From the NCBI GenBank assembly GCA_900318835.1, contig ONLW01000019.1, forward strand, positions 1-52,406: 52,406 nt of DNA, given 5' to 3'. The notes under the pieces were generated by a model. That model worked only from the letters and a program-made list of their open reading frames with translations, did no database searches and was not told the origin of the DNA. Made by a program: the position numbers and the translations under genes. Shown here piece after piece: positions 6,875 to 41,658 of this stretch. This DNA comes from an uncultured Bacteroidales bacterium (GTDB taxonomy: Bacteria; Bacteroidota; Bacteroidia; Bacteroidales; P3). Positions within the stretch are counted from its first letter, which is position 1. Every line of letters begins with the position of its first letter.

Positions 6875-7138
6875 ATGAACAAATCAGAACTTGTTAATGC
6901 AATGGCCGAGAAAACCGGCATGACCAAAGTAGCCGCCAAACAGGCTTTGACCGCTTGCTTTGAATCCATTCAGGCTGAGCTGAGAAAAGGCGAGAAAGTG
7001 ACCCTCATCGGCTTCGGTTCGTTTAGCGTTGTGAAGCGCAAAGCCCGCACCGCCAAGAACCCCCGCACCGGCAAGCCCGTGAAAGTCGCCGCCAAGAAAG
7101 TGGCCAAATTCAAAGCCGGCAGCAATCTCCTCAAATAG
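6875..7138 (+). CDS. HU family DNA-binding protein
   Basis: 87 residues. This is the histone-like HU/IHF fold: an N-terminal helical dimerisation region (MNKSELVNAMAEKTGMTK), the GFGSF turn at about 47-51, and the beta-arm motif ARTAKNPRTGKPVKV that wraps into the DNA minor groove. It compacts and bends DNA in the nucleoid. It has its own promoter and a strong terminator, so it is a single-gene transcript. The stop codon is TAG at normal protein length, which shows TAG is an ordinary stop in this genome. Confidence 0.97.
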   Translation: MNKSELVNAMAEKTGMTKVAAKQALTACFESIQAELRKGEKVTLIGFGSFSVVKRKARTAKNPRTGKPVKVAAKKVAKFKAGSNLLK

Positions 7139-7203: not shown

Positions 7204-7210
7204 TCTCCTT

Positions 7211-7303
7211 CTGCCACCTACCTCCACCCCACCATCCCCTACCCTCGTAGGAGATGGGTAAGGGATGGGTAGGAGATGGTAAAGACTTGGGTAAGACTTG
7301 ATA
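7211..7303 (+). repeat. Eleven-nt-unit palindromic element, copy A
   Basis: Left arm: three 11-nt pyrimidine-rich units (CTGCCACCTAC, CTCCACCCCAC, CATCCCCTACC). Centre CT at 7244-7245. Right arm: five 11-nt units, CGTAGGAGATG, GGTAAGGGATG, GGTAGGAGATG, GTAAAGACTTG, GGTAAGACTTG, then ATA. The right arm has almost the same unit order as copy E near 41 kb and the reverse-complemented left arm of copy C near 26.8 kb. Confidence 0.85.
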
Positions 7304-7459
7304 CCTTCTAGGCACTGATTTCCAGCACAATATTTCGTACATTTTTTGTTCCAAATTTCAATCTGTTTTCAAAAAAAATAAAATCCTTTTATTGGATGGG
7401 GGGCAACTCATGTTAAGGGATTTTAACATAATTATGTTATAAAATGTGAAAACATTTCG

Positions 7460-7535: not shown

Positions 7536-8528
7536 ATGATAGGAGTGATTGGAAGTGGCACTTGGGCCACTGCAATTGTCAAAATACTGCTTGAACAAGA
7601 GGGTCGAAAAATCAATTGGTGGGTAAGAAGTGATGAAGTGCGTAACGGATTGGAGCATGATGGCCACAATCCCAAATACCTGCCCTCAGTCCAGCTCGAT
7701 AATTCGCGGCTGAACCTCAGCGGGAACCTCGCCGAAGTAGTGGGAGACAGCGACTATCTTTTTCTGGTCACCCCGTCGGCCTATATCGCCGATGTGTTGG
7801 AGACCCTCCCCAAGTCGGCCTACAAGGGCAAGAAATTCATCTCCGCCATCAAAGGCATCATACCCGACAAACGCACCAGCGTGTCGGTATATTTGGAAAC
7901 AACATTCAAAATCAAGAAGAACGACATCTGTGTCATCAGCGGCCCGACACATGCCGAGGAGGCTTCGCGGTGTATGCCGACCTTCTTGACCATGGCCTCT
8001 GCCAGTCCCACGCTGGCCATTGAGGTGGAGCAGATGATGCGTTGTCCCTATCTCCACACCACCCACACCTCCGACATCTGGGTGGTGGAACGCATCGGCC
8101 TCACTAAAAACATCTATGCCATTTGCGCCGGCATGTGTCAGGGGCTAGGCTATGGCGACAACCTCAATGCTGTGATGGTCAGTGCCGCCATGCGCGAAAC
8201 GAGCCGTCTTACAAGACTTTACAGTTCGCAAAACGTCCCCACCACAGACAACTGGTATCTCGGAGACATGATGGTTACCTGCTGGTCGAAGCACAGCCGC
8301 AACCGCCGTCTGGGAGAAGAGATTGCCAAAGGCAAAGCACTGAACGACATCTTCACCGAAATGGGCATGATTGCAGAGGGGTATTTCTCGGCAAAGAACT
8401 ATCACGAGTTGGGCATGATGACAGGCAAAGTTGACGAGATGCCCATCGTGGAGGCTGTCTACCATGTACTCTACGAGAGTGCCGACCCCAAAGCAGAGAT
8501 TGACTACCTGATTGAACATGTATTCTAA
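7536..8528 (+). CDS. gpsA: NAD(P)H-dependent glycerol-3-phosphate dehydrogenase
   Basis: 330 residues, family length. It reduces dihydroxyacetone phosphate to sn-glycerol-3-phosphate for phospholipid synthesis. The Rossmann loop GSGTWATA is at residues 6-13, the catalytic Lys191 is in RIGLTKNIYAICAG, and the C-terminal helical signature GYGDNLNAVMVSAAMRE follows. The stop codon is directly abutted by the ATG of the downstream acyltransferase. The pair makes the backbone and then acylates it, so this is a two-gene lipid-head operon. The substrate-binding region is well conserved and I see no sign of damage. Confidence 0.95.
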   Translation: MIGVIGSGTWATAIVKILLEQEGRKINWWVRSDEVRNGLEHDGHNPKYLPSVQLDNSRLNLSGNLAEVVGDSDYLFLVTPSAYIADVLETLPKSAYKGKKFISAIKGIIPDKRTSVSVYLETTFKIKKNDICVISGPTHAEEASRCMPTFLTMASASPTLAIEVEQMMRCPYLHTTHTSDIWVVERIGLTKNIYAICAGMCQGLGYGDNLNAVMVSAAMRETSRLTRLYSSQNVPTTDNWYLGDMMVTCWSKHSRNRRLGEEIAKGKALNDIFTEMGMIAEGYFSAKNYHELGMMTGKVDEMPIVEAVYHVLYESADPKAEIDYLIEHVF

Positions 8529-17996: not shown

Positions 17997-18026
17997 AAAG
18001 GCTCCCAAATGGGAGCCTTTTTTTTT
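17997..18026. terminator. Bidirectional terminator between yicC and the convergent T9SS gene
   Basis: Stem GGCTCCC (18000-18006) / GGGAGCC (18011-18017), extended by A/T pairs, with nine T on the right and an A-rich run on the left. It serves both convergent genes. Confidence 0.9.
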
Positions 18027-18044
18027 GCACTATCACGGAGGAAC

Positions 18045-20831
18045 TTACTTGACAATAAGTTTCTCGATCTTGCTGAAGGTGTTGTTGGTGATGCGAACGA
18101 AGTAGGCACCAGCGGGGAAGTTGCTAACGTTGATGGTGTTCTCAACCTCGGCATTGATTTCGCGGTTGTAAATCACACGGCCGCTCATATCGAGGATGCT
18201 GCAGTTCACCATACCGCTGACACCAGCGACATTCAGCTTCACAACAGAAGTGGCGGGATTGGGCGACACAGAGAAGCGCACATCGGGAGAGACAGGGTCA
18301 ATACCGGAGACATCCCAGCTCTGCCACTCGTAGTCGGCAGTGATGACATAGCCACCATTGCGCTCAGGAATGTTGAAAAAGACCACACGATAGTAGTTAC
18401 GATAAAGAATCACATTTTCACCGCTTGCATCGAAGGTGTCAATAACATTGTAGGGACCTTCATAGAGGAGGACGGTATCCTGCTCGGTAGGAGTATATTC
18501 TTCATCAACGGGAGTAAGCTCAACGCCATTGACATAGACATTGGTAATAACAGAGTGAGAGAGTTTGCCGAAAGGAACGACGTCGAAAATCTGACGGGTG
18601 CCAGCAGCGCAGTCCTCATCTTCGCCACAAATGGCAGTATTGTTATGCTCAACAACATAACCAATGGAATCGCCACTATGTTCGGCATCGGCCCTCACAT
18701 CGCAGGGAGAGGTAACAATGACCGGGACACGAGCCTTGGCCGGTCCAATGATGGGGCGAATCATGGGGAAAGCATCGCAACTCCAACCATAAATCCAGTG
18801 ACGGACATCCGAAGCATCGTTAGGATTGGTGTAGCCAGTACGGTCATACACAAGGAGGTCGAGAGGCGAGATGGGATAGTTCTGACGATAGTAGGGTCTG
18901 GTCTGAGCATTGCCACTATAATAATAGGTGGAGTCGCCATATTTGTATCTATTGCTCTGGGCAGCAAGTTCGAAAGTATAGTTGCCGGCGAGCACATAAC
19001 CGAAGTAGTAGGCAGTATTCTTCTTGATGACAGGCTCATCGCCAAACTCAATATTAAGAGCGCTGTAGTTGGACTCATTGGGGCTGGGCAGAGCAAAGCT
19101 GGAGGGCAGGTTGCTAACATCCTTATCAGTCACCTCAAAGGCCATGTTGTCGATACCGACAGAAAGCTCGGTCCAGTCTGTACCACCATTACTCTCAAAA
19201 ATAAGAGGATAGATGGCAGATTCCTTCATAAGGTCGGGATCAATGCTGGTGGAGGGGATATACTCAATACCCTTGAAGACATAACCTTCGGGAATCTGAT
19301 CACCGGTGATAAAGCGGGTCATAACCTGATAACCACGCTGGTTGGCGTGACCATCCTGATCGGCATCAGTCAAATAGCCATCATCAGTAAAAGCATTGTG
19401 GAAACTGGTACCATTACCAATGATACCATTTTCGCGGGCCCAACGGTAACCGTTGACACGACCTGCCGTAGTGGGATCTTCGGGGTCAAACTGCATGTTG
19501 CCGGTGACAGTGTAGAGGACGGAGTCGCGGAGAGTACGACGAATCTGAGAGTCGGCACTGTCGCCTTCAAACTTGATGGAGAAGAAGTTCATACCAAGGG
19601 TCTCGGTATTGAATCCACGTCCCTGATAACCACCCGTATAGCCTTCCTGCTGACGTCCATAGTTGGGCTGATTCTCCAAATAAGCATATTTTCCCCAGCT
19701 GTAGGTGGTGTCGTCGTCATGAGAAGTGTTGGCCAAGAAACCACGCTCATTGATGTAGAGTCTATAGTCTTTCTCCACATTGCCGGCAGGGATATTGTAG
19801 GGAGTGCTGGTGGCAACATTCGTCCAGTCACCACTGGTGTTGACAGGGGCGTTGGCGATAGAAATAGTAGCATTGTTGATGGCATTAACGTTGGTGTTAC
19901 GCACATGAACACCATAGGTCAGAGGAATGTTCATGCCCTGAGGAATCATGCCATAGAAACCGTCGAAAGTCGAAGAGGTATTAGCTTCGTAACTGTGAGT
20001 GCGGTTGTCGGAAAGGATGGAGAGGTTACCAACAAACCACATGTTACCGTAAGAGTTGCCCGAATGAGCGGAATAGACACGGAGACGAACCGTGACATCG
20101 GTCTGGTTGGCCAGATTGTTGGGCATGACATAACGGACATGGAGGCTGCCCCAGCTATTGATATCGCAATCGACACCCATGACGTTGACCTCACGGGCAT
20201 ACCAGTCATTGCCAATCTTGTAATCAATAAAGCACTGATCGTAGTACTTATAGTAAATTTGGGTAAAGGAAACCGCAATCATCTTGCTGGCACCGGCAGC
20301 AAGTGTGCGGGGTTTGGTAGGAAATTCGCAGTAGGCATTGACAAAACCCACGCTACGGGCACCCTGAGCCTCGTCGTAAACAAATCCGACGAAAGCGCCG
20401 TCAAAAAATTCGGCGAAGTAGCCGTTGTTTGAGAACCACTGATCGTTGTTGGGATACTCAGAGGCGGAACGGTTAGCCAAATCGGTAGAACTTGAGAAGC
20501 TCTTCCAAGCACACCATGTGTAATTTCTGGTGGGCACGGTATTATAATTGGTGTGGAAGACGCTGTCACGGCCGTCGAACTTGATGACGTCATCCTGACG
20601 GATAAGGCCGGGGGTGATGCCAGTGAGGTCGGCGAAAGTAAAGACGGTGTCGAACATTTCTCCATCCTTGGTAAAGACGGAAGCCTTGTAGTCGACAGAA
20701 GCCTTCTTCAACTCGCTCAGATTAGGCTTCTGAGCCTTGAAGGATCCACGGTCGGTGGAAACCACATTGGTTTGTGCAAAGGCAAAAGTGGCGCACAATG
20801 CAAAACCCAAAACCATTAATGCTTTTTTCAT
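18045..20831 (-). CDS. Large secreted protein with type A T9SS sorting domain
   Basis: 928 residues from the ATG at 20831. The frame extends upstream, but that part lacks a signal peptide and overlaps the promoter leader. The signal peptide is MKKALMVLGFALCATFAFA, cut before QTNVV. The body has no domain I can name; it is rich in aromatic residues, Asn and Gly, and contains an Asp-rich stretch (DADQDGHANQRG) that could bind calcium. The C-terminal sorting domain is clear: VRFSVSPNPATSVVKLNV, CSILDMSGRVIYN, FPAGAYFVRITN, KIEKLIVK. Probably a large surface or extracellular protein. It is transcribed alone, ending at the shared terminator. A long ORF on the opposite strand is a codon-bias shadow. 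Confidence 0.88.
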   Translation of the reverse strand: MKKALMVLGFALCATFAFAQTNVVSTDRGSFKAQKPNLSELKKASVDYKASVFTKDGEMFDTVFTFADLTGITPGLIRQDDVIKFDGRDSVFHTNYNTVPTRNYTWCAWKSFSSSTDLANRSASEYPNNDQWFSNNGYFAEFFDGAFVGFVYDEAQGARSVGFVNAYCEFPTKPRTLAAGASKMIAVSFTQIYYKYYDQCFIDYKIGNDWYAREVNVMGVDCDINSWGSLHVRYVMPNNLANQTDVTVRLRVYSAHSGNSYGNMWFVGNLSILSDNRTHSYEANTSSTFDGFYGMIPQGMNIPLTYGVHVRNTNVNAINNATISIANAPVNTSGDWTNVATSTPYNIPAGNVEKDYRLYINERGFLANTSHDDDTTYSWGKYAYLENQPNYGRQQEGYTGGYQGRGFNTETLGMNFFSIKFEGDSADSQIRRTLRDSVLYTVTGNMQFDPEDPTTAGRVNGYRWARENGIIGNGTSFHNAFTDDGYLTDADQDGHANQRGYQVMTRFITGDQIPEGYVFKGIEYIPSTSIDPDLMKESAIYPLIFESNGGTDWTELSVGIDNMAFEVTDKDVSNLPSSFALPSPNESNYSALNIEFGDEPVIKKNTAYYFGYVLAGNYTFELAAQSNRYKYGDSTYYYSGNAQTRPYYRQNYPISPLDLLVYDRTGYTNPNDASDVRHWIYGWSCDAFPMIRPIIGPAKARVPVIVTSPCDVRADAEHSGDSIGYVVEHNNTAICGEDEDCAAGTRQIFDVVPFGKLSHSVITNVYVNGVELTPVDEEYTPTEQDTVLLYEGPYNVIDTFDASGENVILYRNYYRVVFFNIPERNGGYVITADYEWQSWDVSGIDPVSPDVRFSVSPNPATSVVKLNVAGVSGMVNCSILDMSGRVIYNREINAEVENTINVSNFPAGAYFVRITNNTFSKIEKLIVK

Positions 20832-20972
20832 TGTTGTTTGATTTTTGATGAATAAATTTAATTTGTTTTCTATTTCAATTCCAATATTTCCACTATCTTC
20901 TCTATCTACAACATACTCTAACACACCGCAATAAATCAATATACTACACTATTCTACACTATATTTCACGGT

Positions 20973-20981: not shown

Positions 20982-21054
20982 GCACTTTTTTCTGACTCAA
21001 CAACATTTTTTGTATTTTTTAACCATCGTGAAGACTTGAATAATGGCAGATTGA

Positions 21055-21145
21055 CACCCTCCCCCTATCATCTACCTACCAACACCCTACCAACTCCTAC
21101 CATGGTAGGAGTTGGTTAGGAGTTGATAGGGTGTTGGTTGGTGGT
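21055..21145. repeat. Eleven-nt-unit palindromic element, copy B (most symmetrical)
   Basis: Bases 21090-21115 form a perfect 26-bp palindrome (each half CCAACTCCTACCA). Outside it, CAACACCCTA (21080-21089) pairs with TAGGGTGTTG (21127-21136), separated on the right by exactly one extra 11-nt unit (TTAGGAGTTGA, 21116-21126). Further left, more 11-nt pyrimidine-rich units are visible. It lies between two divergently transcribed genes, so it is not simply a terminator. Confidence 0.85.
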
Positions 21146-21275
21146 TATCAGCCAGTTGCCCCCCAGGGCGTTTTTTGCGTTTTTCTGACACAATAAAAGA
21201 CGTTTTTTTGAGTTTTTATTGATACTAATGACCCTATAAACCAAAGAAGATATAGCCACTGTTAATAATAACATA

Positions 21276-22925
21276 ATGTATATATATAAAAAGGGAACTA
21301 TCATTCTGTGCATGCTGGTGGCAGCGGTGTTGTGGAGCTGCAGCGGCGGAAAAAGAGCTGCCACGGCGGAGCGCGGACGCTATGAGCGCCCCCCTATCAA
21401 GGAGGTGACCGAGGAGGAACTGGCTGCCGACGGCATGCTCATCGACGCCCTGTCGCTCCAAGAGAGCGGCCGTACCGGCGAGGCACTTGCCGCCTACGCC
21501 CGCACCACAGAAAAATATCCCGGGTGTGCTGCTGCATGGTATGGCATGAGCCAGTTGCTGGCCGCCCGCGGATGGGCCGACAGCGCCGAAGCCTGCGCCC
21601 AACGCGCCGTGCGTCTCAACGGCGACAACGTGTGGTACCGCCTCTCGCTGGCGCAATGCCAGCAGATGAAGGGGAACACCAAAGGACTGACTTCCAACTG
21701 GGAGGCCATCGTCAAGGGGCATCCCGAAGTGCTGGAATACTACTACGAACTCTCCAACGCCTATATCGCCGCCGGCGACTTGCCGAAAGCCGTGGAAGTG
21801 CTGAACCGTGTGGAGAAGAAGATAGGCATCACCGAGCCCATTTCGCTACAGAAGCAGAAATTGTGGAATGCCGCCGGCAAACAGGACAAGGCCATGAAGG
21901 AGGTCGAAGCCCTGGCCGAGGCCATGCCACACGAAAAACGCTACCAGGCCATCCTCGCGGAAAGCCACATGCAACAGAAACACTACGCAAAGGCCAAAAC
22001 CTATTATGACCGAATTCTCAAGGCCGACCCCAGCGACCCCTACATCCACATCCAGCTGGCCGAATACTACAAAACCACGAGCCATCCTGCGGAGGCCGAC
22101 AGCGAGATGCTACGCGCCTTCGACAATCCTGAGCTTGACGCCAAAAGCAAACTGCAGATCCTAGGCTCGTTCTATACCGACGAAGAGTTTTTCGGTTCGC
22201 GCAAAGCCACCACATTCCGCTTGATGGACAAGGCCATGGCTGGTTGCAAAGACAGCGCCGAGTTTGCAGCCTTCTACGGCAACGTGCTCTTCAACCAGGG
22301 ACGTTACGTCGAGGCCACACGGCAGCTCGAAATAGCCCTGCAGCGCGACAGCAGCATGTACGAAGTGTGGGAACTGCTGCTGATAAGCCTTGCCAGCAGC
22401 AATGCCGACAACGAACGCATTGAAAGCCATGCCCGTCGCGCAGCACAGCTCTTCCCAGTCCACACACTGCCACATTTCCTGCTGGCACAAAGCGCTTTGA
22501 AACAAGAACACTATGACGAAGCCCTCAAGGAACTCCAGGCCGCCGAGCGGTGGGGTTTCACCAAAGGCTACCTCGAAGCCGAGACCTACAGCCTGATGGG
22601 CGAGGCCTACTACCGGATAGGCGAGTATGACAAAGCCTGGAAAAGCTTCGACCGCAGCCTTGCATTGCAACCCGACGACATGGCGACCCTCAATAATTAC
22701 GCCTACTATCTCTCGGAGCAAAACACCGAGCTTGAAAAAGCCGAACGCATGAGCCGTCGCACCATCGAGGCGCAACCCGACAATGCCAACAACCTTGACA
22801 CCTACGCATGGATTCTCCACCTGATGGGGCGCGACAAAGAGGCGTTGCCCTACATGGAGAAAGCCGTGAAGCTCGACCCCAAGAGCGAGACTCTGCAGAA
22901 CCACTTCAAAGCCATCAAGAAATGA
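21276..22925 (+). CDS. TPR-repeat lipoprotein
   Basis: 549 residues. The signal ends in a lipobox-like LWSC, so the protein is probably lipid-anchored in the envelope. Tetratricopeptide motifs run through almost the whole length, for example GRTGEALAAYARTTEKYPG, KQDKAMKEVEALAEAMP, KHYAKAKTYYDRILKADPSD and YDKAWKSFDRSLALQPDD. The C-terminal repeats are the most regular. TPR proteins of this kind scaffold envelope complexes; the partner is unknown. Its stop overlaps the next start (ATGA, 22922-22925). A TPR protein followed by a DUF4292 lipoprotein is a recurring Bacteroidota pair. Confidence 0.85.
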   Translation: MYIYKKGTIILCMLVAAVLWSCSGGKRAATAERGRYERPPIKEVTEEELAADGMLIDALSLQESGRTGEALAAYARTTEKYPGCAAAWYGMSQLLAARGWADSAEACAQRAVRLNGDNVWYRLSLAQCQQMKGNTKGLTSNWEAIVKGHPEVLEYYYELSNAYIAAGDLPKAVEVLNRVEKKIGITEPISLQKQKLWNAAGKQDKAMKEVEALAEAMPHEKRYQAILAESHMQQKHYAKAKTYYDRILKADPSDPYIHIQLAEYYKTTSHPAEADSEMLRAFDNPELDAKSKLQILGSFYTDEEFFGSRKATTFRLMDKAMAGCKDSAEFAAFYGNVLFNQGRYVEATRQLEIALQRDSSMYEVWELLLISLASSNADNERIESHARRAAQLFPVHTLPHFLLAQSALKQEHYDEALKELQAAERWGFTKGYLEAETYSLMGEAYYRIGEYDKAWKSFDRSLALQPDDMATLNNYAYYLSEQNTELEKAERMSRRTIEAQPDNANNLDTYAWILHLMGRDKEALPYMEKAVKLDPKSETLQNHFKAIKK

Positions 22926-24597: not shown

Positions 24598-25488
24598 ATG
24601 AAACCTACACTATTAGTTCTGGCTGCCGGCATGGGCAGCCGCTACGGCGGACTGAAACAGATGGACGGCGTAGGCCCCCACGGCGAAATCATCATGGACT
24701 ACAGCATCGAGGATGCCATCCGGGCCGGCTTCGGCAAGGTGGTTTTCGTCATCCGCCACTCGTTTGAAGAGGAATTCAAGAAGCACATCAACGCCGACCA
24801 CTTCGGCAACCGCATCGCGGTGGAGTATGTCTTCCAAGAGCTCGACAAGCTTCCCGCAGGCTTCAGTGTCCCCGAAGGGAGAGAGAAACCCTGGGGCACC
24901 AACCACGCCATCCTCATGGCAAAGGAGGCCATCCACGAACCTTTCGCCATCATCAACGCCGACGACTTCTACGGCCGCGATGCCTTTGAGGTAATGGCAA
25001 AACACCTGATGACCCTCGACGGTACCAAAGGCAAATACTGCATGGTGGGCTACCGTCTGGAGAACACCCTGAGCGAAAACGGCACCGTGAGCCGCGGCGT
25101 CTGCGAGACCTCGGCCAACGGCCTCCTCATCGGCATGACAGAGCGCACTTCAATAGGCCGTACTGCCAACGGTATCGAGTTCAAAGATACCGACGGCAGT
25201 ATGCATCCCCTGGCCGCCGATGCTACCGTGAGCATGAACCTCTTCGGCTTCACACCCGACTATTTCGAAAAGAGCGAGGAGCTCTTCGTGGACTTCTTGA
25301 AAGAGCATGGCAACGAACTGAAGAGCGAATACTACATTCCCTTCGCGGTGAACACCTTCATCCATAGCGGCTACGCCACAATGACCGTCCTCAAGACCAC
25401 GGCCCAGTGGTTTGGCGTCACCTACAAGGAAGACCGACCGATGGTCGTCGCACGCCTGCAGAAACTGCATGACCAGGGAGTTTATTAA
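24598..25488 (+). CDS. NTP transferase family sugar-phosphate nucleotidyltransferase
   Basis: 296 residues. The N-terminal nucleotide-binding signature is LAAGMGSRYGGLKQMDGVG, followed by GEIIMDYSIEDAIRAG, and a catalytic metal-binding segment FAIINADDFYGRDAFEVM. The family makes NDP-sugars from sugar-1-phosphates; the sugar cannot be read here. Such proteins are common in Bacteroidota, often alongside an aminoglycoside-phosphotransferase-like kinase, which is absent here. The 3' end overlaps the methyltransferase gene by 20 nt. Confidence 0.85.
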   Translation: MKPTLLVLAAGMGSRYGGLKQMDGVGPHGEIIMDYSIEDAIRAGFGKVVFVIRHSFEEEFKKHINADHFGNRIAVEYVFQELDKLPAGFSVPEGREKPWGTNHAILMAKEAIHEPFAIINADDFYGRDAFEVMAKHLMTLDGTKGKYCMVGYRLENTLSENGTVSRGVCETSANGLLIGMTERTSIGRTANGIEFKDTDGSMHPLAADATVSMNLFGFTPDYFEKSEELFVDFLKEHGNELKSEYYIPFAVNTFIHSGYATMTVLKTTAQWFGVTYKEDRPMVVARLQKLHDQGVY

Positions 25489-26635
25489 TTTCGTAAACGC
25501 CCATAAGGACGAGGATACCGCGAGGCTGCTGCTGAGTGCCACGCGGTATCCTTCTATTGATATGTCCGCAGCGGTGCAGCAAATCGAGGGGCTTCGGACG
25601 GCTCGCGAGAAGTGGCCTTCTCTGTCGGAATGCGAAGAGTTTGTCTACCCGCCAAGACTCAACCGCGAGCAAGCATCGTCAGAGGAGACAGCCCACTACA
25701 AGGCCTCGCTTGTTTCACCTTTCTCCATTGCCGACCTGACAGGCGGCATGGGTATCGACACCCTGGCTTTCGCCGAAATCGAACACCGACATCCTGCCAG
25801 CCCCGTCCTGATAGACTATGTGGAACGCGACCCACAGCTCTGCGCCTTGATGGAACAAAATCTCAAGGTCCTCGGCATAACCAACGTCTGCGTCCACTGC
25901 GCCGACAGCATGGAGTGGCTGTCAACTGCAGGCCATTTCAACCTGATTTTCATCGACCCCGCACGCCGAAGCGCCGCGGGACGCAAGGTAGCCGCCTTCG
26001 AGGACTGCACGCCCAATATCCTCGAGCACAGAAAACTACTACAATCCCACTGTCAACAGCTCATGGTCAAGGCCAGCCCCATGATTGACATCGACCTTGC
26101 CGTACAACAACTCGGAAACGTGATCAGTGTGCATATCGTTGGGGTGAAAGGCGAGTGCAAAGAGGTGCTGTTCATCTGCGGCGAACCGGCAGGCGAGCCG
26201 CGAATCACTTGCGGAAACTTTTCTTTCTCGCGCAGCGAGGAGACTGCTGCCGAAGGACACTATGGTCAATCCGTAGGTCGTTATCTCTATGAACCCGATG
26301 CCACACTAATGAAAGCCGGCCCCTTCAAGCTCATCAGCCAACGTTACCACTTGGCGCAACTGGGGCGCAACACCCACCTCTACACCTCCAACGAGCGGGT
26401 CATCAACTTTCCAGGCCGAGTGTTTGAAGTATTGAAAGAGATGAAAATCAGTCGCAAAGAAGTATCATCTGCCATTCCCGGCGGCAAAGCGCATGTGGTA
26501 ACCCGCAACTATCCCGTAGAGGCATCAGCGCTGCAACACCAGCTGGGCCTCAAAGAAGGAGGTGACCTCTTTATCATCGCCACCACGGTTGGCAACAGGA
26601 AAGCTAGTTATCTGTGCGCCAGGAACTTAGCATAA
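25469..26635 (+). CDS. THUMP-like class I SAM-dependent methyltransferase
   Basis: 388 residues from the ATG at 25469 (MTREFINFVNAHKDEDT), chosen because it begins the conserved helical N-terminus; a longer ORF runs back into the previous gene. Methyltransferase motif I is IADLTGGMGIDTLAF, the acidic residue after strand 2 lies in IDYVERDP, and NLIFIDPARRSAAG holds motif IV. The C-terminal part (EMKISRKEVSSAIPGGKAH) is a THUMP-like RNA-binding extension. It probably methylates an RNA base; the target is not known. Confidence 0.82.
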   Translation: MTREFINFVNAHKDEDTARLLLSATRYPSIDMSAAVQQIEGLRTAREKWPSLSECEEFVYPPRLNREQASSEETAHYKASLVSPFSIADLTGGMGIDTLAFAEIEHRHPASPVLIDYVERDPQLCALMEQNLKVLGITNVCVHCADSMEWLSTAGHFNLIFIDPARRSAAGRKVAAFEDCTPNILEHRKLLQSHCQQLMVKASPMIDIDLAVQQLGNVISVHIVGVKGECKEVLFICGEPAGEPRITCGNFSFSRSEETAAEGHYGQSVGRYLYEPDATLMKAGPFKLISQRYHLAQLGRNTHLYTSNERVINFPGRVFEVLKEMKISRKEVSSAIPGGKAHVVTRNYPVEASALQHQLGLKEGGDLFIIATTVGNRKASYLCARNLA

Positions 26636-26708: not shown

Positions 26709-26820
26709 ACATTCAACACCATCCACCCATCAAGTCTTACCCAACTCTTTACCAACTCCTACCCACCCCCTACCCATCCCTTACTTTGGTAGGAGATGAC
26801 AGGGTGCAGGAAGGTCGCTG
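26709..26820 (-). repeat. Eleven-nt-unit palindromic element, copy C
   Basis: Here the long arm is on the left: seven 11-nt units ending CAAGTCTTACC, CAACTCTTTAC, CAACTCCTACC, CACCCCCTACC, CATCCCTTACT, then centre TT (26786-26787), then right units GGTAGGAGATG, ACAGGGTGCAG, GAAGGTCGCTG. Read on the minus strand, the long arm has the same unit order as the right arms of copies A and E, so this copy is inverted relative to them. Confidence 0.85.
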
Positions 26821-26828
26821 ACGCAGTC

Positions 26829-26859
26829 CATGAAGGTGCAACATACCTAGCCTTCATGG
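26829..26859 (+). repeat. Hairpin upstream of the rplM promoter
   Basis: CCATGAAGG (26829-26837) pairs perfectly with CCTTCATGG (26851-26859) across a 13-nt loop. No T-tract follows, so it is either a processed 3' end of the upstream gene or an operator. Confidence 0.6.
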
Positions 26860-31052: not shown

Positions 31053-32336
31053 TTACCTTACGATGACCTTCACTCCCTCACGCTCCAAGTATTGCGATGA
31101 GCCATAGGGGTCGATTTCAAGGACCGGATGAAGATTAGGGTCGAAAACTGGTATCTCGCCCAGCAACATCGCTGTGCCCACAAGTTTAATCGGCGGCAGC
31201 GTACAGTTCTTTTGGTATTTATCCTCCAGCATCACGTATTTTGCGTAGCCCAGAGCAGAGAACGTGATGGTGTAACTACCCTTGACCACCTTCACGGCAA
31301 AGTTTCCGTCGAAGTCGGTCGCAGTGCCGGTTACCGTGCCGTTGCTGTCGGTGATGATGACATTGACAAACGGAAGCGGATCGTCCGTCTTGGAATCCAC
31401 CACCGTACCCTTTATCGTGACGCTATCGGCCACATGCACAGCCTCCTTGACGATGGGCGGTACCTCGGACAGCACGGCAGGATACGTCTCAGCGGCCTGT
31501 GCTGTGCTGGCTGCCAGCCCCAATGCAAGAGCGGCGATGGAGAGCACTTTCACCCGCGCTCCCTGTTGCTCTTTATCCTCGTAGAAAATCGGCTGCTTCT
31601 TGGGAGTGGGCTGGTTGGCCGGCGTACCGGGGAGCTTCACCTGTATCTCGCCCGGGACATCTCTGGGCACATTCACCTTTCCTCCTGGCGCCATTTGCTC
31701 GATTATCTCCTCCACAGAAGAGGGCATCCCTATATCAATCACAGGCCTTTTCCCACCATCGATGATGACGGCGCTGTCCAAATCCATGCCGACATCCATC
31801 ACGGTGAAGCCCGTCTTGTTGACGGTAATCCCTTGCTCGAACGGTTGTTTCCTCTCGGGCGTTTTGATACACAACGTGTAGTCGCCGAAGGGTATCGGCT
31901 TGAGGGTATATCGTCCGTCGAAGTCGGTCGTTCCTACAAGTATCTGCTTTCCGTCTTGTATCAGGACAACATTGCAGAACGGCAACGGCTCGTTGGTCTT
32001 GATGTCGAACACCATACCTTTCAGGGTACCGAGACATTCAGCCTTGTGGACTTTGGTGGTGTCCTGCAACGGCACCACGTCGGTCTGCGGAGCCTGAGCC
32101 TGTGCGGTGGTGGCCAGACCTAGCGCGATGCCTGCGACGGTGGCCACCTTGCCGATGCGCAGCCTCTCGGCCAATGCGTTCTCCAGATACCGAACCTCTG
32201 CCTCGCACCGTGGGCAGGTGCCCCGGCACTCACCCTTGAAGGTACATTCCTCTATTTTTAAAGGGATATCATTCTCCTCGGCGATGCGTTTCCGCACCTC
32301 CTTCAACTGCTTGCAGATGTTCCTTCCGTGTGTCAT
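31053..32336 (-). CDS. Two carboxypeptidase-regulatory-like domains behind the same N-terminal zinc-knuckle module
   Basis: 427 residues. The first ~78 residues (MTHGRNICKQLKEVRKRI, ECTFKGECRGTCPRCEAEV, IGKVATVAGIALGLATTAQA) are nearly the same as in the downstream gene. Two carboxypeptidase-regulatory-like beta domains follow: LKGMVFDIKTNEPLPFCNVV with GTTDFDGRYTLKPIPFGDY, and IKGTVVDSKTDDPLPFVNV with GTATDFDGNFAVKVVKGSY. Between them is a second hydrophobic stretch (VLSIAALALGLAASTAQA). It ends in REGVKVIVR. Such domains usually sit at the N-termini of SusC/TonB-dependent proteins; here they form most of the protein. Likely an envelope protein paired with the TonB-like neighbour. Confidence 0.75.
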   Translation of the reverse strand: MTHGRNICKQLKEVRKRIAEENDIPLKIEECTFKGECRGTCPRCEAEVRYLENALAERLRIGKVATVAGIALGLATTAQAQAPQTDVVPLQDTTKVHKAECLGTLKGMVFDIKTNEPLPFCNVVLIQDGKQILVGTTDFDGRYTLKPIPFGDYTLCIKTPERKQPFEQGITVNKTGFTVMDVGMDLDSAVIIDGGKRPVIDIGMPSSVEEIIEQMAPGGKVNVPRDVPGEIQVKLPGTPANQPTPKKQPIFYEDKEQQGARVKVLSIAALALGLAASTAQAAETYPAVLSEVPPIVKEAVHVADSVTIKGTVVDSKTDDPLPFVNVIITDSNGTVTGTATDFDGNFAVKVVKGSYTITFSALGYAKYVMLEDKYQKNCTLPPIKLVGTAMLLGEIPVFDPNLHPVLEIDPYGSSQYLEREGVKVIVR

Positions 32337-32466: not shown

Positions 32467-32557
32467 TTCCAGCATTTATGGCAATAACGATACCGGAACA
32501 CATTTATTCTCCTTTTTAACTTTTTCCATAGACACCAAACTAATACTTTGACCTTAT

Positions 32558-32603
32558 GAAAACCCTACCAACTCCTACCATAGTAGGTGATGATAGGGTG
32601 ATA
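32558..32603. repeat. Eleven-nt-unit palindromic element, copy D (shortest)
   Basis: Two left units (GAAAACCCTAC, CAACTCCTACC), centre AT, two right units (AGTAGGTGATG, ATAGGGTGATA). ACCCTA pairs with TAGGGT and CCTAC with GTAGG. Confidence 0.8.
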
Positions 32604-32712
32604 AAAGGGAGGCGAAGTGTCAAAATTAACAGTTGTTAGGAAAGTTTGTCCCCATTTTCAAAAACAATCGATGGCGGGCAATAAATATATTTTTTTTACG
32701 TTTTTGAGAGCG

Positions 32713-33399
32713 ATGGCGAAGAAGCAGAAATACTACGTGGTGTGGCAGGGCAAGAAGCCCGGCATCTACACTGACTGGGACGAGTGCAAGGAACAGGTCG
32801 CAGGGGTGAAAGGGGCACAGTACAAGGGCTTCGACTCTCTAGCGGAGGCCGAGGCGGCGAGCAAGCTGCCGTACAGCAGCGTAGTGATTCGAAATACTCC
32901 GAGTAATCAGAGTAATCAGAATACTCCGATTCTCACCATCGACGAGAATGGTATGACTGTCTTGCAGACGGGGACGTCGGCGCTCCCAGGAGGTGTTCCG
33001 GTACTCGACGCGTTGGCCGTCGATGCGGCCTGCAGCGGTAATCCCGGAGTGATGGAATATCAGGGCATCTACATTCCCACCCGAACGCGCGTCTTCCACT
33101 ACCGAGCTGAGAAAGGCACCAACAACATCGGCGAGTTCCTCGCTATTGTTCATGGTTTGAGCTACCTGAAGAAGCATCATCTAAACCAGATTATTTACAG
33201 CGACAGCGTCAACGCCATCTCGTGGGTGCGACAGAAGGTGTGCAAAAGCAAGTTGCCTGAGAACGCCTCGACTGCCGAGCTGTGGGACTATATCCACCGC
33301 GCCGAGAACTGGCTGCGCACCAATAGCTATACTACTGAGATTCGCAAATGGGATACCGACCACTGGGGCGAGATTCCAGCAGATTTTGGAAGAAAATAG
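32713..33399 (+). CDS. Ribonuclease HI with N-terminal viroplasmin-like domain
   Basis: 228 residues from the ATG at 32713 (MAKKQKYYVVWQGKKPGIY). Residues 1-55 are the viroplasmin / hybrid-binding domain (WQGKKPGIYTDWDECKEQV, FDSLAEAEAA), which grips RNA-DNA hybrids. The RNase HI domain carries Asp104 (VDAACSGNPG), Glu141 (NNIGEF), Asp164 (IYSDSVNA) and Asp214 (KWDTDHW). The enzyme removes RNA from RNA-DNA hybrids. The linker between the domains (residues ~60-76, NTPSNQSNQNTPI) is encoded by a 9-nt-period TCNGA array, also seen in uvrD. prmC begins 5 nt after the stop. Confidence 0.92.
   Translation: MAKKQKYYVVWQGKKPGIYTDWDECKEQVAGVKGAQYKGFDSLAEAEAASKLPYSSVVIRNTPSNQSNQNTPILTIDENGMTVLQTGTSALPGGVPVLDALAVDAACSGNPGVMEYQGIYIPTRTRVFHYRAEKGTNNIGEFLAIVHGLSYLKKHHLNQIIYSDSVNAISWVRQKVCKSKLPENASTAELWDYIHRAENWLRTNSYTTEIRKWDTDHWGEIPADFGRK
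32889..32929 (+). repeat. TCNGA-N4 array in the rnhA linker
   Basis: TCCGA, TCAGA, TCAGA and TCCGA begin at 32898, 32907, 32916 and 32925, with a degenerate TCGAA at 32889: an exact 9-nt period. It encodes the flexible linker between the two domains. Confidence 0.85.
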
Positions 33400-38454: not shown

Positions 38455-40758
38455 CTATTCCACTATGGTAAGTTTGGCGAATTTGAGCATCAGCTGTTTC
38501 TGCCCGACACCATCGAAAAAGACTGTTGCTTTGCGTGAATCGCCGACACCCTCGACTCCCAGCACCTTGCCGATGCCAAACTTCTCGTGGCTCACTCGCA
38601 TACCGGGCTGGATGCTGTTGATGGCGGCAGGGTTGTTGGGGATAGCTGCCGTCCGGGGCTTCTGAATAGTCTGAGTACTCCGAGTATTCTGAGTATTCTG
38701 ATTGGGTTTCCCTGCATTGAAGAAAGCTCGCGGCAGGGTGCCCGGCTCGGGCATGCTGCGTCGCGTGGTCGGCATCTCTATGTATTGGGGGTCTATCTCC
38801 TCCACAAAACGGCTCACCTCGCCGCCCATGCGCTGGCCGTTGTTGAAGCGCGTCTGGGCGTAGGAGAGCGTTACCTGTTTCTCTGCACGTGTCACCGCTA
38901 CATAAAACAGCCTCCGTTCCTCTTCGAGCTCCGGCCGACTCATGGCGAGGAACGACGGGAATATCTGCTCCTCCATGCCCACCACAAAGACGTAGGGGAA
39001 TTCCAGGCCTTTGGCGGCGTGGATGGTCATCAGGCTCACTTTGTTGGCATCCTTGTCCTTGTCTTTATCCTCGGAGGTGTAGAGGAGCACTTGCTGGAGA
39101 AACTCGTCGAGAGTACGGAGGGGTTTCTCAGAGTTCTCTGATTTTTCGGAGCTTTCTGAATGTTCAGATTCTTCCGATTCGCAGAATTCCTGCACGCCAT
39201 TGAGGAGCTCGTCAATATTGTCGATGCGCTCGGCACTCTCGGGATCGTCCTCCTCGCGCAGGGCTTTGACGATGCCGCTGGCATAGACAATCTGCTTGGC
39301 CAGCGTGAAAGCGTCGGTGGTCGGCACCTCGGCCTCGAAGCGCTTTATCATGTAGACGAACTCGGTGATCTTCTGCACCGCACCACTCTGGATGGGTAGG
39401 CCGAAATCGACGATATTCTCCAGCACCGTCCAAATGCTCACGTCGTTGTCGGCAGCCGCCACGCGTATCTTGTCCATGGTAGTCTGTCCGATGCCACGGG
39501 TGGGGTAGTTGATGACGCGCACGAGGGACTCATCGTCGTGGGGGTTGATAGCCAAGCGCAGGTAGGCCAGCACGTCTTTTACCTCGCGACGCCCGTAGAA
39601 CGAAAGTCCCTGGTAAATCTTGTAGGGGATGTTCATCTTGCGCAGCGCATCCTCGATGGAGCGCGAGAGGGAGTTCTGACGGTAGAGGATGGCGAAGTCG
39701 CGGTAGTTGGCATCCTCACCAAGGCGCAGATTCTGAATAGAATCCGCTACGCGCATACCCTCGTCCTTTTCGTCGACGGCACGGATGAGCTTGATGCGGT
39801 TACCCACGCTGTTGTCACTCCAAAGTTCCTTCTGTATCTGGTCGCGATTGCGGCTGATGATGCTGTTGGCGGCATTAACGATGTTCTTGGTCGAACGGTA
39901 GTTCTGCTCCAGTTTGAAGAGTTGCATCGTCGGATAGTCGCGCTTGAAGTTGAAGATATTCTGAATGTTAGCCCCACGGAAGGCATAGATGCTCTGTGCG
40001 TCGTCGCCCACCACGCAGATGTTCTGGTTGCGTGCGGCCAACTTTTTGACAATCAAATACTGTGCATAGTTGGTGTCCTGATACTCATCCACCATGATGT
40101 AGTGGAAGCGCTGCTGGTATTTCAGCAACACGTCGGGGAAGTCGCGGAGCAGGATGTTCATGTTGAACAGCAGGTCGTCGAAGTCCATGGCGTTGCTGTT
40201 GTGCAGACGCTGGTCGTACATCTGGTAGATTTGGCCGATGGCGGGGCGCTTGCTGTCGATATCGGTCTGGTAGATTTCGGGGTTCTCCTGATAGTCTTTA
40301 GGACTGAGGAGGTTGCTCTTGGCCATCGAGATGCGGCTCATCACGAAGGAGGGCTTGTAGGTCTTGGGGTCGAGGTTGAGTTGCTTGACAATCTGCTTGA
40401 TGGAGGCTTTTGAGTCGTCGGTGTCGTAGATGGTGAAGCTGGAGGTGTAGCCCAGCTTGGTGGCTTCGGCGCGCAACACGCGTGCGAAGATGCTGTGGAA
40501 GGTACCCATCCAGAGGTTACGGCCCTCGCCGCCCACCAATTTGATGATACGCTCTTTCATCTCGTTGGCGGCTTTGTTGGTGAAAGTCAGCGCCAAAATA
40601 TGGAACGGGTCCACGCCCAGCTCCATCAGGTGGGCTATGCGGTAGGTCAGCGTGCGCGTCTTGCCGCTGCCCGCACCGGCGATAATCATCACCGGCCCGT
40701 CGACACATGCTGCCGCCTCACGTTGGGGTTCATTCAGTTGATCAAGCAGTTCACTCAT
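38455..40758 (-). CDS. UvrD/PcrA-type DNA helicase with two repeat-coded linkers
   Basis: 767 residues. SF1A motifs are complete: Q-motif LNEPQREAA, Walker A IIAGAGSGKTRTL, GTFHSIFARVLR, Walker B YIMVDEYQDTN, GDDAQSIYAFRGA, YRSTKNIVNAAN, VSLMTIHAAKGLEFPYVFVV and VAVTRAEKQVTLSYA. It unwinds DNA 3' to 5' in repair and replication restart. Two linkers are made of short repeats: residues ~525-545 read (SEx)n from six TCNGA units, and ~686-700 read QNTQNTRSTQ from five TCNGA units, the second next to the C-terminal Tudor-like domain (GMRVSHEKFGIGKVLGVE). It is first in the operon uvrD-cotH-cotH-dtd. Confidence 0.95.
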   Translation of the reverse strand: MSELLDQLNEPQREAAACVDGPVMIIAGAGSGKTRTLTYRIAHLMELGVDPFHILALTFTNKAANEMKERIIKLVGGEGRNLWMGTFHSIFARVLRAEATKLGYTSSFTIYDTDDSKASIKQIVKQLNLDPKTYKPSFVMSRISMAKSNLLSPKDYQENPEIYQTDIDSKRPAIGQIYQMYDQRLHNSNAMDFDDLLFNMNILLRDFPDVLLKYQQRFHYIMVDEYQDTNYAQYLIVKKLAARNQNICVVGDDAQSIYAFRGANIQNIFNFKRDYPTMQLFKLEQNYRSTKNIVNAANSIISRNRDQIQKELWSDNSVGNRIKLIRAVDEKDEGMRVADSIQNLRLGEDANYRDFAILYRQNSLSRSIEDALRKMNIPYKIYQGLSFYGRREVKDVLAYLRLAINPHDDESLVRVINYPTRGIGQTTMDKIRVAAADNDVSIWTVLENIVDFGLPIQSGAVQKITEFVYMIKRFEAEVPTTDAFTLAKQIVYASGIVKALREEDDPESAERIDNIDELLNGVQEFCESEESEHSESSEKSENSEKPLRTLDEFLQQVLLYTSEDKDKDKDANKVSLMTIHAAKGLEFPYVFVVGMEEQIFPSFLAMSRPELEEERRLFYVAVTRAEKQVTLSYAQTRFNNGQRMGGEVSRFVEEIDPQYIEMPTTRRSMPEPGTLPRAFFNAGKPNQNTQNTRSTQTIQKPRTAAIPNNPAAINSIQPGMRVSHEKFGIGKVLGVEGVGDSRKATVFFDGVGQKQLMLKFAKLTIVE
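38661..38701 (-). repeat. TCNGA-N4 array in uvrD, C-terminal linker
   Basis: On the plus strand TCTGA, TCTGA, TCCGA, TCTGA, TCTGA begin at 38661, 38670, 38679, 38688 and 38697: exact 9-nt period. The spacers (GTAC, GTAT) match or resemble those of the rnhA array. Confidence 0.88.
39128..39177 (-). repeat. TCNGA-N4 array in uvrD, 2B-domain linker
   Basis: Six TCNGA units begin at 39128, 39137, 39146, 39155, 39164 and 39173. They encode the Ser-Glu-x repeat SEESEHSESSEKSENSEK. Confidence 0.88.
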
Positions 40759-40788: not shown

Positions 40789-40935
40789 CGAAAAATATTC
40801 CATCTGCCACGGCTATTTTTTTCAATGGGGAATTACTCGGATTTTACGAACCATCGACGACAACCTTGCGGAATCATGTCACGCAGACCTATTACAGGTG
40901 AATTACCTGAGTGTTACATCGGCCAATAGACCTGT

Positions 40936-41036
40936 CACCGACCCACCATCAACCCACCATCACCTACCATGGTAAGGGATGGGTAGGAGTTGGGTAGGAG
41001 ATGGTAAAGAGTTGGGTAAGACTTGATAGGTGGACA
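40936..41036 (+). repeat. Eleven-nt-unit palindromic element, copy E
   Basis: Left units CACCGACCCAC, CATCAACCCAC, CATCACCTACC; centre AT (40969-40970); right units GGTAAGGGATG, GGTAGGAGTTG, GGTAGGAGATG, GTAAAGAGTTG, GGTAAGACTTG, then a partial unit. It lies 10 nt beyond the end of yigZ and upstream of uvrD, in the 288-nt gap at 40759-41046. The rest of that gap holds the uvrD promoter and unassigned sequence with small inverted repeats. Confidence 0.88.
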
Positions 41037-41046
41037 ATGTTAATTA

Positions 41047-41658
41047 TCAGGTAGTTGCAATGACGTCAATTTTAACGGTTCGCAAGTTTGCGACGGAATC
41101 GTAGAGACGGACGCTTAGTGACTGACGGACAGATACTTCAAGTGAGCAGTCGAGGTTAAAGTCCTGATTTTCGGGTTTGAGGTCGAACTCCTTGAGAATG
41201 CGCATCACATCGTTCATGGTCTCATAGGCGAATGAGAGTCGGTAGCGGGTGTCGATGGTTTTCTCGATAATCTGTGCACGGTGGATGGCATCGCGGGCGG
41301 CGACCTTGTATGCGTTGGCCAAGCCGCTGGCACCGAGGAGGATGCCGCCGAAATAGCGCACTACCACGATGAGGGTGTCGGTGAGGTCGGCCGAGAGGAG
41401 CTGGCCGTGGATGGGGCGGCCGCCGGTGCCACTGGGCTCACCGTCGTCGTTGGCGCGGAAAGCGTCCTTGCGGGGCCCGAGGATGTAGGCGTAGCAGTGG
41501 TGGCGGGCATCGAAGTAGTCTTTCCGTAGCTGCTCCAGATGCGCCTTGATTTCCTCCAGAGAATGAACGGGATAGGCGAAAGCCAGGAACTTGGAGCCTT
41601 TCTCCTTGTAGAGTCCCTCTGCGGGACCCGCCAGTGTCTTATAGGTGTCGTCGAACAT
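41047..41658 (-). CDS. YigZ / IMPACT family protein
   Basis: 203 residues. The family signature is complete: KGSKFLAFAYPV, DARHHCYAYILG, ANDDGEPSGTGGRPI, and VVVRYFGGILLGASGLANAY. The C-terminal ferredoxin-like domain (DVMRILKEFDLKPE) is present. The role is poorly defined; relatives of eukaryotic IMPACT bind ribosomes or the GCN pathway, and bacterial members bind nucleic acid in vitro. It is last in the ribD-secreted protein-yigZ operon, 12 nt after the secreted protein gene. Confidence 0.92.
   Translation of the reverse strand: MFDDTYKTLAGPAEGLYKEKGSKFLAFAYPVHSLEEIKAHLEQLRKDYFDARHHCYAYILGPRKDAFRANDDGEPSGTGGRPIHGQLLSADLTDTLIVVVRYFGGILLGASGLANAYKVAARDAIHRAQIIEKTIDTRYRLSFAYETMNDVMRILKEFDLKPENQDFNLDCSLEVSVRQSLSVRLYDSVANLRTVKIDVIATT

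Follow-up and report, generated by a model that had tools for sequence, protein, structure and literature searches.

The window, the whole stretch of 52,406 nucleotides analysed here, is contig C40 of genome G000 (2,336,476 bases in 43 contigs), which belongs to an uncultured Bacteroidales bacterium. Five of its intergenic gaps, the same five named in the first-pass annotation, harbor copies of one repeat element (Table 1). Element A lies between an HU-like gene (6875-7138, plus strand) and a gpsA-like gene (7536-8528, plus strand), with its long C-rich arm carried by the minus strand. Element B, the copy under study, occupies a divergent gap between genes encoding a Por_Secre_tail protein (18045-20939, minus strand) and a TPR protein (21276-22925, plus strand). 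Element C is located between a gene with a THUMP-like/PG_1098 domain (25412-26635, plus strand) and rplM (27097, plus strand), and element D, a short copy, between a gene with a carboxypeptidase-regulatory-like domain (31053-32336, minus strand) and an RNase H gene (ORF 32617-33399, plus strand), with a profile match that runs into the first codons of the RNase H ORF as listed. Element E is found upstream of pcrA (38455-40758, minus strand). Two further features of the window were recorded. Long ORFs overlap on both strands at 18009-20939, where the minus-strand ORF (964 aa) has the Por_Secre_tail domain and the plus-strand ORF (807 aa) gave no match, and an inverted repeat, CCATGAAGGTGCAAC/TAGCCTTCATGG, is present at 26826-26859, just after element C and upstream of rplM.

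Table 1. Repeat elements in the window, with the evidence used to place them
Feature	Position	Strand	Evidence
Element A	7207-7321	-	Profile match, sequence, genes
Element B	21042-21162	-	Profile match, sequence, genes, alignment of the gap with its orthologues in three further species
Central perfect 26-bp palindrome of element B	21090-21115	.	Sequence
Element C	26711-26837	+	Profile match, sequence, genes, comparison with other genomes
Element D (short copy)	32524-32637	+	Profile match, sequence, genes
Element E	40919-41049	-	Profile match, sequence, genes, comparison with other genomes

Anatomy of the element

In G000, the element is a dispersed non-coding intergenic repeat of ~100-130 bp, both arms of which are arrays of 11-nt units arranged around a CTACC-NN-GGTAG dyad. 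The single design of 11-nt units in variable number proposed in the first-pass annotation is upheld, and the perfect palindrome ascribed to element B is present; the arms of this copy also allow a second pairing, 92% complementary, that leaves 17 nt between them. The unit GGTARGRGWTG, with at most one mismatch, matches the window 26 times, compared with a mean of 4.61 and a maximum of 10 in 100 dinucleotide shuffles. For a wider view, 75 centres were read in the window and 71 fetched G000 loci, and 74 elements were kept, a set that represents the best-listed pattern places rather than all places in G000. Two loci (L147 and L191) had no centre under the centre rule, and an unlike palindrome at L171:2222 was dropped from the counts; it spans roughly 50 bp around the centre CTACCATGGTAG, and its arms do not follow the unit.

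The offset of the arms by whole units, first noticed in element B, turned out to be general, as the best register between left and right arms was 0 nt in 41 elements, 11 nt in 23 and 22 nt in 6 (70/74 together), with another value in the remaining 4. Among these 74 elements, the mean identity of the long arm with itself reaches 0.752 at a lag of 11 nt and 0.655 at 22 nt (next highest 0.466, at 21 nt), and the periodicity of the short arm is weaker (0.477 at 11 nt, 0.452 at 22 nt, next 0.387 at 21 nt). Outer units of the arms decay gradually. When the long C-rich arm was placed first, inspection by eye revealed several subfamilies, each with its own tail and partner end, so that G000 copies appear by eye to share common non-repeated ends within subfamilies. 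One such group (L128, L133, L146, L151, L153, L169 and L174) has a common non-repeated end like TTAAGTTAAAATC..TTTTAACGTTYRTTAGGAAAGTTTG.

Pairing between the arms of one element exceeds that between arms of different elements only in unit 1 (0.854 versus 0.832, a difference reached by 0 of 1000 shuffles); units 2-4 showed no significant excess, the observed values being reached by 119, 851 and 667 of 1000 shuffles, respectively. Beyond unit 1, the arms of one element are thus no more alike than those of different elements, which indicates that each arm follows the unit consensus and not its partner, and the proposal that a hairpin is kept by compensatory change was rejected. Folding with RNA parameters gave z-scores of -4.91 for element B and -3.72 for element D relative to dinucleotide shuffles, but the other three window elements fold no better than shuffles (-0.94, -0.81 and -0.72). 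The earlier suggestion that the arms could extrude is therefore weakly supported.

Copy number, placement and turnover

The exact centre CTACCNNGGTAG (CTACC-NN-GGTAG) occurs 83 times in G000, compared with 7 occurrences of a reversed-pattern control. It is also frequent in G009 (87) and G061 (74), is found 15 times in G051, 14 in G002, 5 in G007 and 4 in G015, and occurs 0-3 times in the remaining 52 of the 59 genomes of the genus. Because only 33 of the 74 collected G000 elements have the exact centre, the total in G000 is estimated at roughly 150-190. The doubled unit, with at most two mismatches, likewise gave 98/98 strand matches in G000 versus 8/5 for the reversed pattern, so that the genome-wide scan suggested at first pass did recover further copies. 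This pattern matched 12 of the 41 genomes searched (G000 and 11 others, all of one genus); the 16 genomes from other families gave no match. A scan of named species genomes returned at least 108 matching stretches; among the 80 matches listed, 78 were metagenome-assembled genomes that carry the label Bacteroidales or Bacteroidetes and in many cases come from rumen or reticulum, and the other two were an Erwinia contig and a Burkholderiales contig. In line with the annotation's view that no named family fits, Rfam at gathering thresholds gave no match in the window and only a tRNA in six other stretches. A single query of a plasmid collection with element A gave no match. Dispersed extragenic palindromes are already known as a class, and no palindromic array family of 11-nt units like that of G000 was found described among the matches listed in a search of titles and abstract openings of the open-access literature.

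Genes around the elements were called by a home-made hexamer model that gets some contexts wrong (element B, for example, was scored as tandem and is really divergent). With this proviso, the 76 profile-matched G000 elements comprise 34 in tandem gaps, 29 in divergent gaps, 9 in convergent gaps, 1 inside a gene and 3 at edges. Intergenic DNA in 112 kb amounts to 5352 tandem, 3923 divergent and 942 convergent bases (52/38/9%), a share taken from four stretches, three of which were picked for holding elements. The gap types of the elements follow this share closely, and an apparent enrichment in divergent gaps, striking at first (28 divergent versus 8 convergent), did not survive correction for the length of intergenic DNA. 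Of the 34 G000 elements scored in tandem gaps, 28 have the long C-rich arm turned towards the upstream gene (27/33 without element B, p=0.0003), a bias that is not significant in other species (17/28, p=0.34). An outward TAnnTTTGC-like promoter motif occurs within 300 nt on the sense side of 37/74 elements and on the other side of 17/74. A replication-strand bias was discarded, as sense orientations read off along contigs C16 and C23, with no statistic applied, are mixed within each.

Comparison of gaps between sister species, the test of gain or loss put forward earlier, revealed both absent copies and a net length difference of 11 nt in one shared copy. The nearest genome found is G061 (PcrA 96% identical), and 13 G000 elements lie in stretches compared with it, element A being outside the comparison. 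Five of them have a copy at the same place in G061 (B, C16:68528, C32:4827, C32:10355 and C32:19645), and three have none despite alignable flanks (C, C23:132940 and C23:119760). The copy at C16:77025 is absent from a poorly aligned interval, element D has no counterpart match in a rearranged gap, element E and C16:62952 are not syntenic, and C23:125698 falls at a synteny break between two G061 contigs. The gap of element C is empty at the aligned place in G071 as well, and the G007 gap corresponding to element E is short and lacks the element. The G000 and G061 copies at C16:68528 align with gaps of 1 and 10 nt at the centre, a net difference of 11 nt. One subfamily has several matching places in G061, the longest extending over about 213 bp. 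No target-site duplication was obvious at the three empty sites, where the ends are not resolvable at this divergence. Taken together, dispersal of the repeat is well supported, and the copies probably spread as a non-autonomous mobile element. Two side observations come from the same comparison. An element and its flanks at L319:16020-16330 are (nearly) identical to L325:130-440 across G000 and G061 over more than 200 bp in surroundings of ~89% identity, for which recent transfer, conversion or constraint are possible readings. Past the C23:119760 element, a promoter-like GTACCTTTGCA is followed by a conserved stretch (L318:911-1000) that resembles a cobalamin riboswitch.

An 11-nt step with changing unit sequences across the genus

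Where other species have pcrA, arrays that keep this design but use different units were recognised by eye in the upstream gap. A census of intergenic tandem arrays was then read in three sets of stretches, taken mostly at coordinates of known gene matches. Set A (451 kb) consists of the window and 20 stretches, and set B of 20 stretches totalling 400 kb; the two together cover 31 genomes of the genus. Set C draws 254 kb, in 19 usable stretches, from 15 genomes that belong to other families of the order. The first of these sets was not fully blind, as it includes the window (3 arrays) and two pcrA-upstream arrays seen beforehand (L239 and L240). Arrays containing N were left out of the census and one all-N stretch was dropped, whereas the separate lag counts and the Markov control include N runs. 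The commonest fundamental period was 11 nt, found in 52 of 126 arrays of the genus (30/69 in A, 22/57 in B) and in 0 of 19 arrays of set C; for set B alone versus set C, Fisher's p=0.0008. The 52 include weak arrays, and a score of at least 16 leaves 25 in A, 18 in B and 0 in C. At least one such array was present in 22 of the 31 genomes, within only 20-60 kb of each. The second commonest period was 7 nt (15 in A, 12 in B, 3 in C). These 7-nt intergenic arrays also have varied units (TTTAGTG, TTTAAGG, AATTGAG), for example at L230:16935-17020, L231:9179-9274 and L252:18544-18609, and some form inverted arms with a GC-rich spacer between them. A 9-nt period was seen in arrays at L236:13320-13397, L244:12952-12997 and L234:1304-1400, with TTAATGGGG as an example.

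The units themselves vary widely, both inside one genome (TTGGTAAGTCG, GTTTAACTTGA, CTCGGAGTTGT and ACGGTAGTATT in G012) and between genomes (AGTTCTTCAGT in G022, ATTTAGTTTGT in G063, where arms are C-poor, and TGTTGTTCGTT in G071). Alignment of 26 units from outside the G000 clade gave 6.84 bits, compared with a mean of 6.31 and a maximum of 6.79 in 40 letter-shuffled controls, and 6.36 bits with the G000 clade kept, against a maximum of 5.85 in 20 controls. This excess is weak, so a conserved core in all units was rejected, and a weak common bias remains. Nor is YC alone the common feature, since by eye some units are without any. The strict gapless palindrome test was passed by 16 of the 52 arrays, and many 11-nt arrays are thus not clearly palindromic. 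The gap of element B offers a direct comparison at one orthologous place: four species align, G000 and G061 have palindromes of GGTAGGAGTTG, G071 has a palindrome of AGTATTTGTTC units, and G009 has no 11-nt array there. These data show that the 11-nt step persists across the genus while the unit sequence changes. The interpretation given at first pass is accordingly partly supported and refined, in that the layout extends beyond any one sequence and is built from different 11-nt units elsewhere in the genus. What is new beside the known class is that, across the genus, intergenic tandem arrays most often have a period of 11 nt, although the unit sequences differ widely.

Arm polarity and possible functions

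In sets A and B, 73 intergenic palindromes were found, 14 with an 11-nt period, 57 without and 2 intermediate. The 14, which were not selected by unit and are not all independent (several come from one genome or unit family), have a mean pyrimidine fraction of 0.65 in the 5' arm (13 above 0.5, 1 at 0.5, none below), in contrast to 0.415 in the 57 non-periodic palindromes (14 above, 40 below, 3 at 0.5); both intermediate cases exceed 0.5. In the looser genus-wide set, C does not exceed G in the 5' arm of 5 of 19 palindromic arrays. Among the 74 G000 elements, the 66 nt before the centre contain 0.40 C and 0.06 G, with C/G>1.5 in 74/74 (67/74 on the opposite strand), a median longest G-free run of 46 nt and a mean chain of 3.91 YC dinucleotides spaced at 11 nt, versus 0.20 C, 0.20 G, 230/1166, 13 nt and 1.44 in other intergenic windows; part of this composition is built in, as the elements were found via a G-rich consensus. 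A pyrimidine-rich arm met first on both strands, a feature absent from the first-pass annotation, points to a rut-like function at the RNA level.

Rut sites, as described in the available text of two reports, have more C than G with cytosines every 11-13 nt (PMC6407284) and YC dimers 9-13 nt apart (PMC9160355). The pyrimidine-first arms on both strands, together with few Gs and the 11-nt step, are similar to these published marks, closely so in the G000 family, with the proviso that its elements were found via their consensus. We tentatively favour the reading, to which we give somewhat less than an even chance, that the arms act as outward-facing rut sites and the element as a bidirectional Rho-dependent transcription insulator. 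Whichever strand is read, the dyad would put first an arm that is poor in G, rich in pyrimidines and phased at 11 nt; RNA polymerase entering from either side would then make C-rich, G-poor RNA with cytosines about every 11-13 nt, on which Rho could load and stop read-through, and the element may be tolerated between genes for this reason. REPs are reported to facilitate Rho-dependent termination in the portion of PMC2817692 at hand. Such an insulator would account for the dyad and the polarity, as well as for the orientation seen in G000. It leaves unexplained the strict step of 11, because Rho spacing tolerates 9-13 nt, as well as arrays with C no higher than G, single arrays and the many copies between divergent genes. 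Against it also stand the placement of the elements, which follows intergenic length instead of favouring transcript ends (tandem or convergent gaps) and leaves divergent gaps, the least useful site for a terminator, undepleted, the non-significant orientation bias of other species, and the fact that a full hairpin would hide the rut site. Arrays with little palindromy (inv<11) in tandem gaps oppose it as well, since their transcribed strand is pyrimidine-rich in 4/16 cases (2/13 without the three window elements), the opposite of the prediction. Rut sites in the available text of PMC6407284 and PMC9160355 are loose composition motifs and not tandem palindromes dispersed as a repeat family.

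An alternative scenario, somewhat unlikely in our estimate, is that the element is purely selfish, a non-autonomous repeat of REP/MITE type that does nothing for the host and is intergenic because genes do not tolerate it; its 11-nt units would arise via repeated slippage or hairpin-templated copying. Gap types proportional to intergenic length, presence and absence between sister species, arms without compensatory change beyond unit 1 and a second, 7-nt class of arrays with varied sequence in the same genus are all consistent with it, but pyrimidine-first polarity across differing units, different 11-nt palindromes in one gap of G000/G061 and G071 and the orientation bias in G000 would go unexplained, and no transposase was identified (RAYT was searched by PF01797). 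An array read at the DNA level, in which one unit per helical turn would offer a nucleoid or regulatory protein a constant face or would create a phased bend between promoters, is unlikely, though it keeps alive the earlier idea of a protein binding each unit on one face. The 11-nt step independent of unit sequence, the arms offset by whole units and the promoter motif on the sense side argue for it; the nearly free change of unit sequences ill suits a sequence-specific protein, and the pyrimidine-first polarity finds no reason in it. The helical turn is about 11 bp in negatively supercoiled DNA and 10.5 in B-DNA, and with the latter value the phase would drift over 5 units unless the DNA is underwound. 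Cruciforms that buffer supercoils between promoters are very unlikely: long palindromes are perfect or near-perfect in some species (e.g. L239:12768-12878), but the arms of the G000 family do not covary beyond unit 1 and divergent gaps are not enriched beyond their length. Intrinsic bidirectional terminators (a hairpin plus U-run), extremely improbable here, would suit the strong hairpins of B and D, and were rejected because the arms have the reverse polarity of the remaining intergenic palindromes, which by eye often look like A-rich/T-rich terminators. In the elements inspected by eye, the right arm is not directly followed by a U-run, convergent gaps hold only 9/76 elements, and three of the five window elements fold no better than shuffles.

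The elements also invite comparison with REP/BIME sequences, which in the available text of PMC3733652 and PMC2817692 are likewise extragenic and palindromic, with many copies per genome and oppositely oriented units. Mobilisation as GTAG-type REPs by a RAYT (Y1 tyrosine transposase) is highly improbable. In its favour, GTAG occurs in most units, the elements are palindromic, extragenic (1/76 inside a called gene) and numerous, and two PF01797 matches were found in G000, one of them confirmed by Pfam. REPs as those texts describe them (PMC3733652, PMC2817692) are 20-40 bp stem-loops with an unpaired end tag, GTAG REPs being linked to RAYTs, whereas the G000 elements are ~100-130 bp, consist of two arrays of 11-nt units around a dyad and have GTAG paired at the centre and recurring in the units. 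No PF01797 match was detected in G009, which has 87 exact centres and is 95% complete, or in G044, a carrier of an 11-nt palindrome, and no element adjoins the PF01797 gene at either fetched G000 locus (L121 and L122), the nearest to C23:53309 being 2.2 kb off in an 8-kb stretch. Membership in the GTAG-REP family thus fails on three tested features, stem-loop size, unpaired end tag and a RAYT flanked by repeats, and the PF01797 searches together with the scan of RAYT flanks largely refute mobilisation by RAYT.

The host of the BrickBuilt MITE also belongs to the Bacteroidales. BrickBuilt of Porphyromonas gingivalis resembles the G000 elements in being an intergenic array of tandem units with variable unit number and specific ends, and differs in its 23-nt direct-repeat unit, leader and tail, IS5-like TIRs and 19 copies in ATCC 33277, as given in the available text of PMC4596501, whereas the G000 units are 11 nt long and make up two inverted arms. 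MITEs are marked by dispersed copies whose sites are empty in relatives, and such sites are seen for element C (empty in G061 and G071) and for C23:132940 and C23:119760 (empty in G061). Heptameric repeats of bacteria, in the portion of PMC4692102 at hand, are also tandem units of fixed length, but these are 7 nt long, form G-quadruplexes and come from Xanthomonas and Nostoc.

A further prospect, rather doubtful at present, is a repeat class defined by metre and not by sequence, in which the 11-nt step, the dyad and the pyrimidine-first polarity on both strands would be kept across a genus and the letters left free to change within and between genomes, owing to outward Rho-loading sites or to some other reader of nothing but phase and composition. 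If the arms do load Rho in both directions, the family would be a dispersed repeat that brings its own transcription insulation and would let the rule of cytosine spacing for Rho be tested in nature; if they do not, the strict 11-nt step calls for some other mechanism, of copying or of binding, in this genus. Sequence is what normally identifies a repeat family, whereas here period, symmetry and strand polarity outlast the replacement of the sequence, even at one orthologous gap, and spacing and symmetry may matter more than the letters.
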